Below are positions 18,581 through 48,244 of a stretch of DNA of 64,000 nt, in pieces. The translations under genes were made by a program, and so were the position numbers. A model generated the notes under the pieces. The model saw only the letters and a program-made list of their open reading frames with translations. It did no database searches and was not told the DNA's origin. This DNA comes from an uncultured Poribacteria bacterium (lineage in GTDB: Bacteria > Poribacteria > WGA-4E > WGA-3G). Each line of letters opens with the position of its first letter. The first letter of the stretch is position 1. Where the stretch lies: positions 3,215,200 to 3,279,199 of the forward strand of contig OX639973.1 in the NCBI GenBank assembly GCA_951828385.1. The letters run 5' to 3'.

Positions 18581-18660
18581 AATTTTTTCAAGTTTTGATG
18601 TCGTCTGTAAACCAAAACCTGTTGATAAAAGTCGGATTTTCATAAATTTATCTAATCTTC

Positions 18661-18702
18661 GGTGTCTACATCTCAATCCTTTAGGTTTGGAATGTAGACA
18701 CC
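18661..18702 (+). repeat. Orphan hairpin resembling IS200/IS605 ends
   Basis: A perfect 11-bp stem (GGTGTCTACAT with ATGTAGACACC) encloses a further paired CAATCC-TTTA-GGTTTG core. The 16-bp core AATCCTTTAGGTTTGG is identical to that of the right-end hairpin of the tnpB element (48174-48193), and all three such hairpins in the window have a TTTA loop. No tnpB is next to it, so it is a solo end or a mobilised hairpin. Confidence 0.7.
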
Positions 18703-18727
18703 GCCTCTGGTTGTGTCAAAAACAACT

Positions 18728-18756
18728 TTGACATTGTGAGAAAAATCTGGTATAAT
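18728..18756 (+). promoter_or_regulatory. Consensus sigma-70 type promoter
   Basis: TTGACA (18728-18733) and TATAAT (18751-18756) with exactly 17 bp between them, both boxes perfect. A start near 18762 is predicted. No long gene follows on the plus strand for about 1.1 kb; instead a structured sequence starts at once (18770-18828). Confidence 0.8.
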
Positions 18757-18769
18757 GACTATAGCTATT

Positions 18770-18828
18770 GATTGAGACGTGTAAACTTCGGACCACCTGG
18801 TCCGTTGGTCTCAATCACCCCTTTACAC
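18770..18828 (+). ncRNA. Candidate pseudoknot-forming RNA
   Basis: Immediately downstream of the consensus promoter. GATTGAGAC (18770-18778) is complementary to GTCTCAATC (18808-18816); GTGTAAA (18779-18785) is complementary to TTTACAC (18822-18828). Because the second pair crosses the first, this is an H-type pseudoknot, with a 7-bp hairpin CGGACCA/TGGTCCG (18789-18804) in between. No known RNA family recognised; no terminator seen. A tiny ATG-to-TAA reading frame (ATG at 18837) follows. Non-coding RNA identity is an inference. Confidence 0.5.
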
Positions 18829-19075
18829 GGGCAGAATGGCTATGGCTAATCACCATTAAAAACGAACATAAAGTAGCATTCACTATGCAACATCGCCCTT
18901 TAGTGGACGGTTTGATTGTATATCGTCTACGATAAAGTTCAGTTCTGAAGTAGGAGATACCTACCAGAAGTAGTTGTAACCTCCTATCTTCAATTTTAAA
19001 ATAGATTCTCGCGATTGTCAAGGCAAATCAATTGTGTGCAGAGGTTTTCAGTTTTCAGCAATCAGCGATTGACCA

Positions 19076-19492
19076 TCAATCCCGCTTAATTCCGACGACC
19101 ACGTTCTCAGACGATACGTCCTCCGGTATAACGACAAAAATCTTCCCAACTTCACACCCCTCACCCTGTTTTTCGAGATACTTTGCTATTTCATTTTGGT
19201 CAAGGAGGACAGCACCATCCGCAGTAGATTCAGGTAACGGTGTCCGTTCGGAACCGAACTTCCGGATCCATTTGAAGATAGTGCTCGGGGACACCGAGAA
19301 CATCCGTGCGATATCGCTGATAGTAATCCCCCGGCAGTATAAGAAAACCGCCAAGGCTCTTTGCCAAGCGGGTCTCCCGCGGGTCGTCTGACGGGTAAAC
19401 TGAAAACCACAGGCGTTACACTTGTAGCGTTGGTTCCCTCTTGCTTTTCCATTTTTGACGGCATCCCTGCGTTTACAACGTGGACAGTTCAT
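19076..19492 (-). CDS. Zinc-ribbon/HTH transposase-like (IS1 InsA-like) protein
   Basis: About 138 residues from the ATG at 19492, chosen because it begins the zinc ribbon (MNCPRCKRRDAVKNGKARGNQRYKCNACGFQFT in segments: CPRC, then CNAC). A helix-turn-helix follows (ITISDIARMFSVSPSTIFKWIRKFG). This is the layout of the N-terminal part of IS1/IS1595-type transposases (InsA). No DDE catalytic domain follows; the C-terminus is a short novel tail (EIAKYLEKQGEG...GKIFVVIPED). It is either a domesticated DNA-binding protein or a truncated element. Confidence 0.75.
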   Translation of the reverse strand: MNCPRCKRRDAVKNGKARGNQRYKCNACGFQFTRQTTRGRPAWQRALAVFLYCRGITISDIARMFSVSPSTIFKWIRKFGSERTPLPESTADGAVLLDQNEIAKYLEKQGEGCEVGKIFVVIPEDVSSENVVVGIKRD

Positions 19493-19877
19493 TAGAGCGC
19501 ACCCTCTTTCAAAATTTGATGTGAGAAAGTATACCACAAAAGCGTTAGCCACGCAACACCTTCCGTAAAGAGCCATCAGCCATCAGCGGTTAGCAGTCAG
19601 CAAAAGCGCAAGTAGTGAAGGGCGCGCCTACAATAAAGAATCTATGAGCGGAAAATCGAAATTATAGGAGGGTTGAATGGCTCTGCCTCCTTATAGCAGA
19701 ATAATTTTCACTTGTTATTTTTTTCTGCATGATATATTATATGTTGTAGGTGGAGATGTATCCGCCGAAGACAGGTTTTACAGATTCAAAATGAATGAAA
19801 GCCGTAGGTCCGATTAGAACTTTAGTAGGAGCACATTATGCTCGCGGCGCGCCCAGCGCGTAAAGGAGAACAGGATT
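19493..19877 (+). other. Intergenic region upstream of Gfo/Idh/MocA gene
   Basis: 385 bp. It holds a plus-strand promoter candidate at 19712-19740 and a possible leader to the next gene. A CGCGCC-rich word near 19850 (GGCGCGCCCAGCGCG) may form a small hairpin. Nothing else recognised. Confidence 0.6.
19712..19740 (+). promoter_or_regulatory. Promoter candidate for the Gfo/Idh/MocA gene
   Basis: TTGTTA (19712-19717) and TATTAT (19735-19740) are separated by 17 bp, 138 bp before the gene start. Four to five of six bases match the consensus in each box. Confidence 0.5.
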
Positions 19878-20897
19878 ATGGCAGGGAAACTGAAAGTTGC
19901 AGCAGTTGGGTGCGGTGGCATAGGGCGTCTGCATCAACTCGGCTATCTGCAGCATCCGGGGGCGGAATTAGTGGCAGTCTGTGATATAGATGCCGCTAAA
20001 GCGCAAGCGCGTGCCGAAGAACTCAATATCGCCAAGTGGTATCCCTCCATCCAGGAGATGCTTGCCCATGAAGAATGCGACTTGGTAGATGTCGTAACTG
20101 CTGACCATCTGCACTTTGAACCTGTGATGGAATGTCTGGAAGCCGGCAAACATGTTATCTCCGAGAAACCGCTATCACTTTACATCGATGAAGCAGAACA
20201 GATGGTAGCCAAAGCAGAAGAAAAGGGCGTTCATCTCGCTATTGATTACAATCGCCGATTTGCCCCGGGATACGTCCAAGCCCGGAAATGGTTTGACGCG
20301 GGAGCAATCGGGCAGACGTATTACTTAGACATGAAATTATCTCAAGGGGGCCCCGCTTCAACGTGGAAGGGAGAATATTACCTGCTCTACGAACTCGAAA
20401 CGCACGCCATTGATCTGCTGCGGTGGTTTGGCGGCGAAGTCGTTGCAGTTTGCGCGCAAATGGCGAAGCCGCGGAAACAGGAAGCGCGCGAAGGTGAGGA
20501 CGCGTGTTACACGAGTATGGCGATCTCATTCCGTTACGAAACGGAAGTCGTTGCGACACTCTTAGCAAGTTGGGATAGCGATTTTATCCATCCGATTGAA
20601 CACCTCGAAATCTGTGGCTCCGATGGCGAGATCGTCGTCGATAATGTCCTAACACGCGCAACCCTCATGAGACGAGATAATCAGGTCGTTGAAGAATATC
20701 GGCCCTCCATTTTTAGGGACGAGCAACTCGCTTTTAACGGGACATTCGCCCTACGGATGGCGGCACTCGTTGATGATCTACTCACCGATCAACCGCCCGC
20801 GCCGACAGGAAGAGACGGCTTGCAGGCACTACGCATTACTGAAGCGATTGTAGAGTCATGGCAGGAAAAACGGGAAGTTGAAGTCAAAACAGATTAA
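19878..20897 (+). CDS. Gfo/Idh/MocA family oxidoreductase
   Basis: 339-residue NAD(P)-dependent oxidoreductase. The Rossmann motif VGCGGIGRLHQLGY is followed by ISEKPLSLYIDEAEQMV (EKP motif) and then DYNRRFAPGYVQARKW, GEYYLLYELETHAIDLLRWFGGEVVAV with the usual His-Asp pair. ATG start with AAAGGAG 8-9 nt upstream. It differs clearly from the 11.5-kb paralogue. The substrate is unknown; the following genes are a small exported protein and a GH127 glycosidase, so it may act in sugar degradation. Confidence 0.93.
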   Translation: MAGKLKVAAVGCGGIGRLHQLGYLQHPGAELVAVCDIDAAKAQARAEELNIAKWYPSIQEMLAHEECDLVDVVTADHLHFEPVMECLEAGKHVISEKPLSLYIDEAEQMVAKAEEKGVHLAIDYNRRFAPGYVQARKWFDAGAIGQTYYLDMKLSQGGPASTWKGEYYLLYELETHAIDLLRWFGGEVVAVCAQMAKPRKQEAREGEDACYTSMAISFRYETEVVATLLASWDSDFIHPIEHLEICGSDGEIVVDNVLTRATLMRRDNQVVEEYRPSIFRDEQLAFNGTFALRMAALVDDLLTDQPPAPTGRDGLQALRITEAIVESWQEKREVEVKTD

Positions 20898-46168: not shown

Positions 46169-46748
46169 CTAAACTTCAGGCTGCGATTTCAACATTCGGA
46201 GGGCATCCTGAGCCTGCCTACGTTGTCTCTGTGCTAACGGGTTTCCCCGATCTAACTTAAGTGCTTTGGCAGAATGGCCGATGACCTCCCGATAATATCG
46301 TTTTGCCTCACCGATATCTCCTTCATCCGCCTTATCTTCGGCGGTGTGAATTTTTTACCTCAGCCAAATTAACATGTGCGATTGCATACTCAGGGTTAAT
46401 TTCAATCGCTTTACTGAGGTCTTCAAGCAGCCCCTGTTTATCTCCAAGATTACCTCTTGCGGATGCACGATTGTTGTAGGCGAAGATATGTTCCGGATTA
46501 ATTTGAATCATCTTATCAAAATCCTTAATAGCACTTCGGAACCTCATAACGCGGAGTTTTACGATACCTCGTTTAGAGTAGATTTCAACCAAGTCCGGGT
46601 TGAGTTTCAGAGCGGCACTATAGTCCCTTATCGCGCCCCTATTTTTATTTCGTTCTGCCATTTTTTTGTCTGCTCGCGCTTCCAAAGCGTAGGCACGTAC
46701 GCGTGGGTATTCTTGGAATTCATCTAAGTTCACGGTTTTTCCTCCCAA
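46169..46748 (-). pseudogene. TPR relic of a trypsin-TPR gene, frameshifted
   Basis: Reading from 46748, the frame gives TPR repeats (FQEYPRVRAYALEARADKKM, YSAALKLNPDLVEIYSKRG, AFAYNNRASARGNL-type) closely matching the region after the protease half of the intact paralogues. At an A6 run near 46357 the frame is lost (stop at 46332). One base deleted there restores KIHTAEDKADEGDIGEAKRYYREV and on to a stop at 46169-46171. The protease half is missing, and the break sits where the tnpB element's hairpin begins. Confidence 0.7.
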
Positions 46749-46771
46749 GTCTTTAGACTTGGGAGGAAAAA
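46736..46771. repeat. Left-end hairpin of the tnpB element
   Basis: A 16-bp perfect stem (TTTTTCCTCCCAAGTC with its complement) closes on a TTTA loop. The right-end hairpin (48174-48193) and the orphan hairpin (18661-18702) have the same loop. Its left edge coincides with where the TPR relic stops matching. Confidence 0.75.
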
Positions 46772-46816
46772 CCGCCCTCGTGTATTAGGCCAAGGCGTTT
46801 TTTTCAAAAAAAACAC

Positions 46817-46845
46817 TTGACATTATAGTAAAAATATGTTTTAAT
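46817..46845 (+). promoter_or_regulatory. Promoter candidate for tnpB
   Basis: TTGACA (46817-46822) and TTTAAT (46840-46845) with a 17-bp spacer, about 125 bp before the tnpB ATG. The 5' region then contains nested stems TTCATAG/CTATGAA, CATTACCG/CGGTAATG and CCGCCC/GGGCGG (46868-46940). Confidence 0.6.
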
Positions 46846-46969
46846 ATATGTATCACAGTGGCAGACATTCATAGCATTACCGCCCCTTCCGAGTAACGGG
46901 CGGGGCCCCGGTAATGTGTCGGTTTCCTACCCACTATGAAGGGGTTAAAAGTGTGAACTGTGGACTCTT

Positions 46970-48127
46970 ATGAAAAAACGAAAGCGAAAACAAAAACGCA
47001 CGCGTCGGACGCATAAATATCAGATACGCGAACATCCGCAAAATATGCGGCTCGGCAATATGCTTGACGACTTGGGCGACGTGCATAATCACTTCCTTGC
47101 TTTGGAAAAACGGTATTATCGCCGGTATGGTTTGTATGCGGGACGGTATCGCTTGCAACCGCATTTGACGAAGTTGTTGAAACGCACGAAGCACCATTGG
47201 GCGTGGATACCCCGCGACACACTTGATGAAGTGATTGTCCGTATCCATATCACTTATGAACGCTTTTTTGACGGTCTCGGGGGATTGCCGAAGTTCAAAC
47301 GCAAAGACCGTTATCGTTCTGCTAAGTTCCAATCGGGGTATCTTCTTGAAGAAGGGCGTGTCCGAATCTCTTTCAAAGCGTGGGACGCACCCTCGCACTC
47401 CTTTAAGTTTCACAAGCGTTGGTTTTCTTTTCACTATCACCGTGATTGGAAAGGAAATGTCTGCTATATCCAAATCCTTCGCGATGCGGTTGGCACCTAT
47501 TGGCTTTACATCGTTACTGATGCCTCCACCACCGAACCCTATCCTGCTACAGGTGAGAGCGTAGGGGCAGATTTCGGTATGAAAGAGGCGTTTTTGACGT
47601 TGAACACGGGTGAGAAGATACAATCGCCACAATTCTTGAAACAGTCGTTGGCTGAACTTCGCAACCTCACCAAAAGCCTTTCCCGTAAAGTGAAAGGTTC
47701 TAACAATTGGTGGCGGTGTGTCCGTCAACTCGCACGGTTGTATCGCAAGATTACCCACCAACGCAAAGATTGGCATTGGAAACTTGCCACGGCCCTGTGT
47801 AAAAGGTTTGATCTTATAGCGACTGAGACACTGAACCTTGAGGGTATGAAACGCCTCTGGGGTCGCAAAGTCTCCGACCTTTCTTTCGGGCAGTTTGTTG
47901 AGATTCTGAAGTTCAAGTGTTTCAAACATAATCGTGATTTCTGTCAAGTTGGGCAATGGACACCGACAACTAAACCGTGTTCCGATTGTGGATACCCTAA
48001 TAAGAACCTAAGCCTTGATGATAGGCAGTGGACATGTCCTGAATGTGGTTCTCACCACGATAGAGACGTAAACGCTGCGATAAACATTTTGAGGGCTGCT
48101 TGTGGTCCCTCTGTGGAGACAGCGTAA
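46970..48127 (+). CDS. tnpB: TnpB, RNA-guided nuclease (IS200/IS605 family)
   Basis: 385 residues. The RuvC catalytic residues are in place: Asp in GADFGMKEAFLTLN, Glu in LIATETLNLEGM, Asp in HHDRDVNAAINI. The zinc-binding part has CSDCGYPNKN and CPECG. The basic N-terminus (KKRKRKQKRTRRTHKYQIR) fits RNA binding. It should be an active guide-RNA nuclease; the guide (omega) RNA of this family is normally read from the 3' end of tnpB and the right end, i.e. about 48000-48195 here. No tnpA. Confidence 0.93.
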   Translation: MKKRKRKQKRTRRTHKYQIREHPQNMRLGNMLDDLGDVHNHFLALEKRYYRRYGLYAGRYRLQPHLTKLLKRTKHHWAWIPRDTLDEVIVRIHITYERFFDGLGGLPKFKRKDRYRSAKFQSGYLLEEGRVRISFKAWDAPSHSFKFHKRWFSFHYHRDWKGNVCYIQILRDAVGTYWLYIVTDASTTEPYPATGESVGADFGMKEAFLTLNTGEKIQSPQFLKQSLAELRNLTKSLSRKVKGSNNWWRCVRQLARLYRKITHQRKDWHWKLATALCKRFDLIATETLNLEGMKRLWGRKVSDLSFGQFVEILKFKCFKHNRDFCQVGQWTPTTKPCSDCGYPNKNLSLDDRQWTCPECGSHHDRDVNAAINILRAACGPSVETA

Positions 48128-48173
48128 GACGGTTGACTCTTTGAGAAAACCGCTATTGTCTACGAAGCACAAG

Positions 48174-48193
48174 CCCAATCCTTTAGGTTTGGG
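48174..48193 (+). repeat. Right-end hairpin of the tnpB element
   Basis: CCCAATCC-TTTA-GGTTTGGG. This is the type of right-end hairpin seen in IS605-like elements, and its core is identical to the orphan hairpin at 18661-18702. Confidence 0.8.
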
Positions 48194-48244
48194 TGCCTTG
48201 ACGAGCAATCTCCTTCTATCACTTAAGACAGTAATAAACACGAT

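Follow-up and report, generated by a model that had tools for sequence, protein, structure and literature searches.

The locus lies in a 64,000-nucleotide stretch of DNA (hereafter, the window) from the single-contig, 6.66-Mb genome of a sponge-associated relative of Candidatus Poribacteria; the named relatives that carry the same leader RNA are Candidatus Poribacteria. As the initial annotation had proposed, a promoter of the form TTGACA-17-TATAAT leads straight into two crossing helices and a 7-bp hairpin (Table 1). The helices are complete in the window copy: the crossing strands pair at 10 of 10 positions (18769–18778 with 18808–18817) and at 8 of 8 (18778–18785 with 18822–18829), and the hairpin at 7 of 7 (18789–18795 with 18798–18804). 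Folding added an outer helix (P0) and a 3-bp helix (P4), neither of which was part of the first description. In the predicted fold, P0 encloses P1–P3 and P4, and a 7-bp pseudoknot joins the P4 loop to the bulge between P1 and P3. The stretch 18640–18900, which includes a separate left-end hairpin, folded with z = −6.2 (0/200 shuffles equally stable), and 18763–18857 alone with z = −3.6 (1/200 shuffles equally stable). Since tens of relatives show this architecture with compensatory substitutions, the window fold exceeds chance.

The window copy of the RNA is probably intact but leads no gene. ATT stands where relatives have the tnpB start codon, no TnpB sequence follows, and the next plus-strand gene begins at 19878, in agreement with the gap of more than 1 kb noted at the outset. 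Between the element and that gene, on the minus strand (19076–19576), we noted a protein of 166 aa that begins with a zinc-ribbon-like segment and has an HTH_23 domain, perhaps a remnant or a domesticated transposase.

The IS605-like setting suggested for this locus was borne out: the window copy has a left-end hairpin that also occurs in Y1 transposase-bearing elements, together with the fixed short left target of IS200/IS605 elements, and TTATC precedes this hairpin in nearly all copies compared. The hairpin, initially placed at about 18661–18702, is real (18660–18703), and its TTTA loop is common to the window copy and the tnpB element elsewhere in the window. The core said to be shared by the two elements is, however, a 17-nt exact match to the right-end hairpin of the tnpB element (48176–48192), and the two left-end hairpins differ apart from the loop. 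The tnpB element does show the proposed order of hairpin, promoter and structured 5′ region (46733–46972), and this 5′ region belongs to the same RNA family. An intact right end was not found for the window element, which can be aligned to complete relatives only as far as about 18987.

Table 1. Features of the two elements in the window, numbered from its first base.
Feature	Position	Strand	Basis
TTTATC, target/TAM-like left boundary; element from about 18653	18647–18652	+	boundary inferred by comparison
Left-end subterminal hairpin, TTTA loop	18660–18703	+	arms 21 nt, 86%; same type before L046, L050, L054
Promoter TTGACA-17-TATAAT (TTGACA 18728–18733, TATAAT 18751–18756)	18728–18756	+	sequence
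Predicted transcript start, seven bases past the −10 box and first base of P0	18763	+	prediction
P0 5′ strand, predicted RNA 5′ end	18763–18769	+	fold
P1 5′ strand (partner 18808–18816)	18770–18778	+	helix search and fold
Pseudoknot 5′ strand (partner 18822–18828)	18779–18785	+	helix search; covariation in relatives
P3 hairpin	18789–18804	+	helix search and fold
P1 3′ strand	18808–18816	+	helix search and fold
P4 hairpin (18818–18820/18829–18831); loop holds pseudoknot 3′ strand 18822–18828	18818–18831	+	fold; P4 covaries in relatives
P0 3′ strand, copy 1 (AATGGCT)	18835–18841	+	fold and class A alignment
P0 3′ strand, copy 2 (ATGGCT), alternative partner of the 5′ end	18842–18847	+	class A alignment; seen family-wide
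ATT at decayed start-codon position (ATG in relative L039)	18855–18857	+	comparison
Remaining body of tnpB-less element, right end missing	18858–18987	+	alignment to L043, L254 and L040 stops
Left-end hairpin, in-window tnpB element	46733–46774	+	comparison
Second leader RNA copy, directly before tnpB	46846–46972	+	R1 match, 54 bits
tnpB, 385 aa, OrfB_IS605 and Cas12f1-like TNB domains	46970–48127	+	Pfam
Right-end hairpin and end of in-window tnpB element; 17 nt common with 18660–18703	48173–48201	+	exact end inferred from relatives

Elements with and without tnpB share one left end

A 301-base query centered on the locus matched the host genome at 17 places, most of them sharing the left-end hairpin and promoter alone; the TnpB domain PF07282 was found above cut-off at 54 places. 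Among these 17 places and most of the tnpB places, which we read, elements with the same left-end hairpin are of three kinds: a Y1 transposase plus tnpB (L046, L050, L054), tnpB alone behind the knotted RNA (L042, L048, L082), and geneless elements with the knotted RNA (the window copy, L039, L040, L043, L049). Two tnpA products from elements with this hairpin gave Y1_Tnp matches in Pfam. We also noted a separate family of short geneless elements (L041, L044, L045 and L047, at genome positions 6398042, 1461468, 2776600 and 5025356), which have the same left-end hairpin, a different structured 5′ region (starting TGTATTCGGCAT...) and, at the right, an end similar to the one in L042.

The window copy has the helix order P0-P1-pseudoknot-P3-P4 of the leader family with the promoter directly upstream. 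It falls into a subgroup, class A, that is tied to the family by its architecture and by L057, an element with a class A leader before a tnpB whose product was confirmed by Pfam. Four class A elements are complete and lack tnpB: L040, L043 and L049 in the host genome, and L254 in relative G048, where a second copy (L234, read in part) equaled it in score and extent against the query. These four are mutually alignable at 63–75% identity, and their right half, on reading, resembles the right end of host-genome tnpB elements. The suggestion of a minimal element therefore holds in kind, the relatives being complete tnpB-less elements of ~600 bp, but not for the window copy itself, which has no right end.

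MAFFT misaligned class A with class B leaders and within class A, and class A was therefore examined one helix at a time. Across the window copy, L039 and the four complete tnpB-less elements, 194 of 195 helix pairs form, with five different P0 helices and five different pseudoknot helices among the six copies; as these helices were picked from single sequences, the count shows pairing rather than blind discovery. Judged from these alignments, the window copy is part of a diverged tnpB-less relative that has kept the predicted promoter and RNA and has lost the start codon and the right end.

The leader is a covarying RNA family of Poribacteria

A genome search for the knot with covariation had been named as one of the checks; the searches returned a structured RNA conserved with covariation in relatives. 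A stricter pseudoknot finder, run over all fetched stretches, revealed the same helix order before tnpB after tnpB. We aligned 17 relatives with MAFFT (alignment A2), in which 97.2% of cells were paired and 23 of 36 pairs were changed on both sides (0/500 shuffles as high), and built from A2 a covariance model, R1. This model was run on 82 fetched loci, 80 loci of a pattern scan and 30 membrane-protein loci. The host genome gave 41 matches at E up to 1, 40 of them at E < 1e-5. Matches were present in 47 of the 84 genomes of the phylum: 38/38 of the same genus, 8/18 of another genus of the family (g3), 0/2 of a further genus (g2) and 1/26 outside the family, counts that leave aside class A, which R1 does not recognize, and at least one divergent leader that it missed (L296).

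Among 61 distinct rows, 96.9% of cells were paired and 30 of 36 pairs showed changes on both sides (0/500 shuffles as high); when partners were slid by 1–3 columns, pairing fell to 32–51%. The pseudoknot helix was 98.6% paired, with six of seven pairs changed on both sides. The nested part of the structure was used in fitting the 61-row alignment; the pseudoknot is not among the pairs of R1, and the MAFFT alignment A2 is independent of the model. Across leaders, G-U cells outnumbered A-C cells by 127 to 15, as expected for an RNA of this strand.

For the promoter, G-U, energy and Shine-Dalgarno (SD) counts, 125 of 148 matches were kept; five chance-like rows (L187, L162, L047, L144 on the minus strand and L146 on the plus strand), L131 near 6895 and duplicates were dropped. 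Sufficient upstream sequence for the promoter count was present in 123 of the 125, and 109 had both a start codon and the UAA landmark.

Scanning genome contigs for the exact pattern gave at least 108 stretches, and 76 of the 80 among the matches listed were from Poribacteria. The other four of these 80 (L162, L168, L169, L187) gave no R1 match or E values of 0.15–0.92. A further stretch from outside Poribacteria, L214 (Clostridiales), is among the at least 108. The window gave no covariance-model match in Rfam 15 (4227 families) at gathering cut-offs. Seven relative loci searched at E up to 10 gave five weak matches, of which none fell on the leader or came close to its gathering score. In open-licence papers, we found no description of this RNA. 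By sequence comparison, then, the leader RNA is a large Poribacteria family of predicted 5′-terminal structured leaders without an Rfam match.

Several identities were considered and set aside. The guide-like RNA of the initial annotation does not fit, given that in all tnpB-bearing relatives the RNA lies to the left of tnpB, at the 5′ end of the tnpB transcript rather than at the right end, and that Rfam has no match. A HEARO/IscB guide RNA likewise has no Rfam match, and the downstream proteins tested are TnpB (OrfB_IS605 plus TNB domain). For self-cleaving ribozymes (pistol, HDV), we found neither a match to an Rfam model nor a conserved unpaired stretch resembling an active site. An isolated small RNA is at odds with most copies being tnpB leaders.

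The leader stands directly before tnpB and is mutually exclusive with the transposase gene

The RNA usually forms the 5′ leader of a tnpB gene whose IS605-type element has no transposase gene. Its promoter is closely fixed: 91 of 123 leaders have a −10 box ending 4 nt before P0, and 120 of 123 contain at least five of the six −10 bases. An intact zinc-ribbon TnpB frame lay behind 91 of the 148 raw R1 matches, in 83 of these with the ATG exactly at the end of the model. Using tblastn, we found TnpB sequence downstream of 42 more matches, several of them cut by a contig end or decayed, which brings the total to 133 of 148. An SD-like motif occurred between −15 and −1 in one of 109 leaders versus 17 of 34 window ORFs longer than 250 aa, a crude comparison in that the first ATG was taken for the window frames.

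In five genomes (the host and four near-complete relatives), we scored 178 tnpB genes for a leader and for a transposase gene within 1.6 kb upstream. A leader alone preceded 130 and a transposase gene alone 18; none had both, and 30 had neither (Fisher p = 3.5e-12). The host genome contributes 38 leaders for its 54 tnpB genes, that is, 37 plus the one of class A (L057); a leader assigned to the tnpB at 707912, a truncated gene beside an IS607-type element, was not counted. The transposase labels of L054, L064 and L085 rest on reading rather than on Pfam. L058 was scored as having neither, and the frame upstream of it resembles, by eye, the end of a Y1 transposase, which would give, in the host genome, 14 transposase-coupled genes and two with neither.

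The other four genomes hold 27 of the genes with neither. Nineteen of these are in open frames shorter than 350 aa, and eight were read individually. L296 turned out to have a divergent leader, and L295, L298 and L299 stayed among the genes with neither. From L297 and L300, and likewise from L084, the leader seems to have been deleted, such that remnants of the promoter, or the flank, run almost straight into the ATG; their messages are possibly leaderless. L301 and L302 (G082:C1 4727650–4729600 and 2396200–2398150) perhaps represent a second leader family: tnpB stands behind a different knotted 5′ region, and ahead of the ATG the closing 3′ strand, GATAAGG, again occurs twice.

In the four tnpA-coupled elements that we read (L059, L060, L012, L015), the tnpB ATG overlaps the tnpA stop codon, in L059 as ATGA. 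TnpB from L059, where the gene follows tnpA, shares 87% identity with TnpB from L062, where it follows the leader; the leader and tnpA are hence like exchangeable modules before the same gene.

A second gene carries the same leader

In the host genome (L230/L265) and in relatives, the leader also stands directly before a gene for a small membrane protein of 150–170 aa with a coiled-coil tail and without a Pfam match at cut-off (L230:1253–1816, genome 3817252 onwards; L265–L268, L270–L273). R1 matched just upstream in eight of the nine best of 30 such loci; the other 21 gave one match, elsewhere in the locus. The start of this gene has CAG at the usual place and TTG nine bases on, and L230 and L166 are without the usual left-end hairpin. 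The leader before this gene shows that the module is not bound to TnpB.

Three other contexts were noted. At L120:1501–1700, a leader whose start codon has decayed immediately precedes a frame resembling, by eye, a GIY-YIG endonuclease. At L232:1154–1268, a decayed leader (E 0.41) lies ~50 nt upstream of a frame that by eye is catalase-peroxidase-like. Lastly, a 54-kb contig of a virus collection (IMGVR_UViG_3300033059_000057; L263, L264) has at least three leader matches, one of them before a TnpB frame.

The closing strand of P0 is duplicated before the start codon

Upon inspection of the leaders, we noted that the 3′ strand of P0 is present in two tandem copies before the start codon (for example, CGTGATA-CGTGATA). 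Between copy 2 and the 5′ strand, 93.9% of cells were paired, versus 20–49% in slid controls. Cells changed on both sides numbered 56, compared with 16.7 in shuffles (0/500 as high), and pairs with changes on both sides were four of eight, a number reached by 65 of 500 shuffles. The longest helix that the 5′ strand forms with its own copy 2 averaged 6.67, whereas 200 partner shuffles gave at most 5.52 (126 rows; the same five chance-like rows were dropped and L131 was kept). In L043, the copy 2 pairing is weak (3/6).

The mean pairing energy from the predicted 5′ end was −8.2 kcal/mol for copy 1 and −7.4 kcal/mol for copy 2, as against −3.5 kcal/mol for copy 2 of other leaders. The two energies, from which the pseudoknot contribution is left out, were within 2 kcal/mol of each other in 93 of 109 leaders, with copy 1 slightly stronger on average. 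There is thus a conserved alternative pairing that touches the start region, as in riboswitch-type leaders. The duplicated strand has the layout of a two-register switch, and the 5′ end may switch between the two copies.

Discussion

The promoter, an RNA of ~100 nt and the tnpB start codon at a fixed distance form one unit in the sequence. The usual place of the leader directly before the tnpB start codon points to a cis-acting leader more than to a small regulatory RNA working in trans, and we consider it reasonably likely, going by sequence comparison, that the leader acts in cis on the use of the transcript that begins with it, with translation initiation of tnpB as the main step. Initiation would be the likeliest step for tnpB, given a start codon whose position is fixed, which has no SD-like motif and which copy 2 could cover. 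If the first ~8 nt were paired with copy 1, the fold would be closed and the start region free; if they were paired with copy 2, just before the start codon, the start would be covered. The RNA is nevertheless kept in four tnpB-less elements. Its function must therefore extend beyond the control of tnpB translation, and this upkeep favors a further or earlier role, in transcript stability or protein binding. The leader before the membrane-protein gene, the weak copy 2 pairing in L043 and the slightly stronger average pairing of copy 1 also speak against the proposed control of initiation.

We judge it unlikely that the leader is chiefly a stabilizer of the 5′ end, that is, a knotted cap that blocks 5′-dependent decay and so raises the levels of tnpB mRNA and of the guide RNA at the distal end of that message, with effects on translation being secondary. 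The predicted 5′ end is itself paired in both registers, and a stabilizer would account both for the leader before another gene and for its retention in tnpB-less elements, which have a right half similar to the right end of elements with tnpB. Stabilization alone, however, leaves unexplained the fixed distance to the start codon, the missing SD-like motif and the covariation of copy 2 with P0.

It seems quite improbable that the leader is a binding site for TnpB or its guide-RNA complex, through which the protein would regulate its own expression or be retained near the element, tnpB-less copies then serving as decoys or recruiting TnpB in trans. Such a site would suit the 133 of 148 matches that lie before TnpB sequence, and TnpB is described, in the available part of PMC10278001, as processing its own mRNA, which has an inhibitory region. 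Yet one fold serves TnpB subfamilies with quite different N-termini, it also precedes a gene unrelated to TnpB, and it does not resemble any known guide-RNA family in Rfam.

A signal at the DNA level, in which the transposase would read an extra single-stranded fold during mobilization and the RNA would be incidental, has very little to recommend it. The fold does lie near the left end of every element that carries it and survives in geneless elements, and the two G048 copies match the query equally; against this, G-U cells far exceed A-C cells, the promoter is at a fixed distance, Y1-transposase elements with the same left-end hairpin do without such a fold, and the fold occurs before a gene that has no such hairpin. 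Equally remote is a metabolite-sensing riboswitch: P0 with an alternative partner beside the start codon is a riboswitch-like layout, the alternative pairing of the closing strand covaries, both registers have near-equal energies and two gene families carry the leader, but conserved unpaired positions are few, a mobile nuclease would be an unusual client and no known class in Rfam matches.

Returning to control of initiation in cis, a more specific form of it is a tentative proposal that we would not yet favor: in tnpB messages, the 5′ end would pick one of its two partner copies and thereby decide whether the nuclease is made, while the same module would also work on nuclease-free transcripts, namely those of tnpB-less elements and of the membrane-protein gene. 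The whole population of TnpB elements would then share one control RNA.

TnpB represents the nuclease lineage from which Cas12 came, and is an ancestor of CRISPR nucleases. The control of its expression within its own elements is largely open, and the leader offers a testable two-state design. A strongly covarying leader of ~100 nt precedes many different tnpB genes and is mutually exclusive with transposase genes, which gives a direct handle on the upkeep and control of transposase-less TnpB elements. The leader also adds to the known structured RNAs a family absent from Rfam 15 and shows that such RNAs persist in elements without tnpB.

Comparison with known systems

The guide RNAs of TnpB (omega RNA/reRNA) come from the right end of the element, with the guide lying beyond it. 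Like them, the leader is a structured RNA encoded by the element, and it is predicted to share their transcript; unlike them, it lies at the left, before tnpB. Among ribozymes, pistol pairs a hairpin loop with an internal bulge and HDV has two crossing helices. The leader has a comparable loop-bulge pairing (with the hairpin on the other side in pistol) or pair of crossing helices, but in most copies the strand joining P3 to P1 is without conserved unpaired nucleotides.

In IS200, tnpA is controlled by a leader hairpin and an antisense RNA. The likeness here is control of an IS200/IS605 gene at the RNA level, whereas the IS200 case concerns tnpA, and in our elements those bearing tnpA are the ones without the leader. 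In the available part of PMC10278001, this control of tnpA is mentioned in general terms, and cis-acting control by the tnpB mRNA is discussed as a possibility. The only RNA motif named with "Transposase" in the part of PMC2864571 at hand comes from several phyla.

PATE-like elements are described in PMC7290912; in the available part of that paper, one consists of the ends and a bit of tnpB only. Our elements agree with IS200/IS605 and PATE-like elements in their subterminal hairpins, TTATC-type left boundary, Y1 tnpA-tnpB relatives and short geneless copies. They differ from the PATE-like elements, as far as the available part of PMC7290912 describes them, in that the tnpB-less copies retain a promoter together with a pseudoknotted leader whose helices show compensatory changes.

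With structured mRNA leaders and riboswitches, finally, the family shares a compact 5′ fold and a closing helix for which an alternative partner lies close to the start codon. It departs from them in that the RNA is carried on mobile elements, in tens of copies per genome, and in that the partner strand is duplicated.
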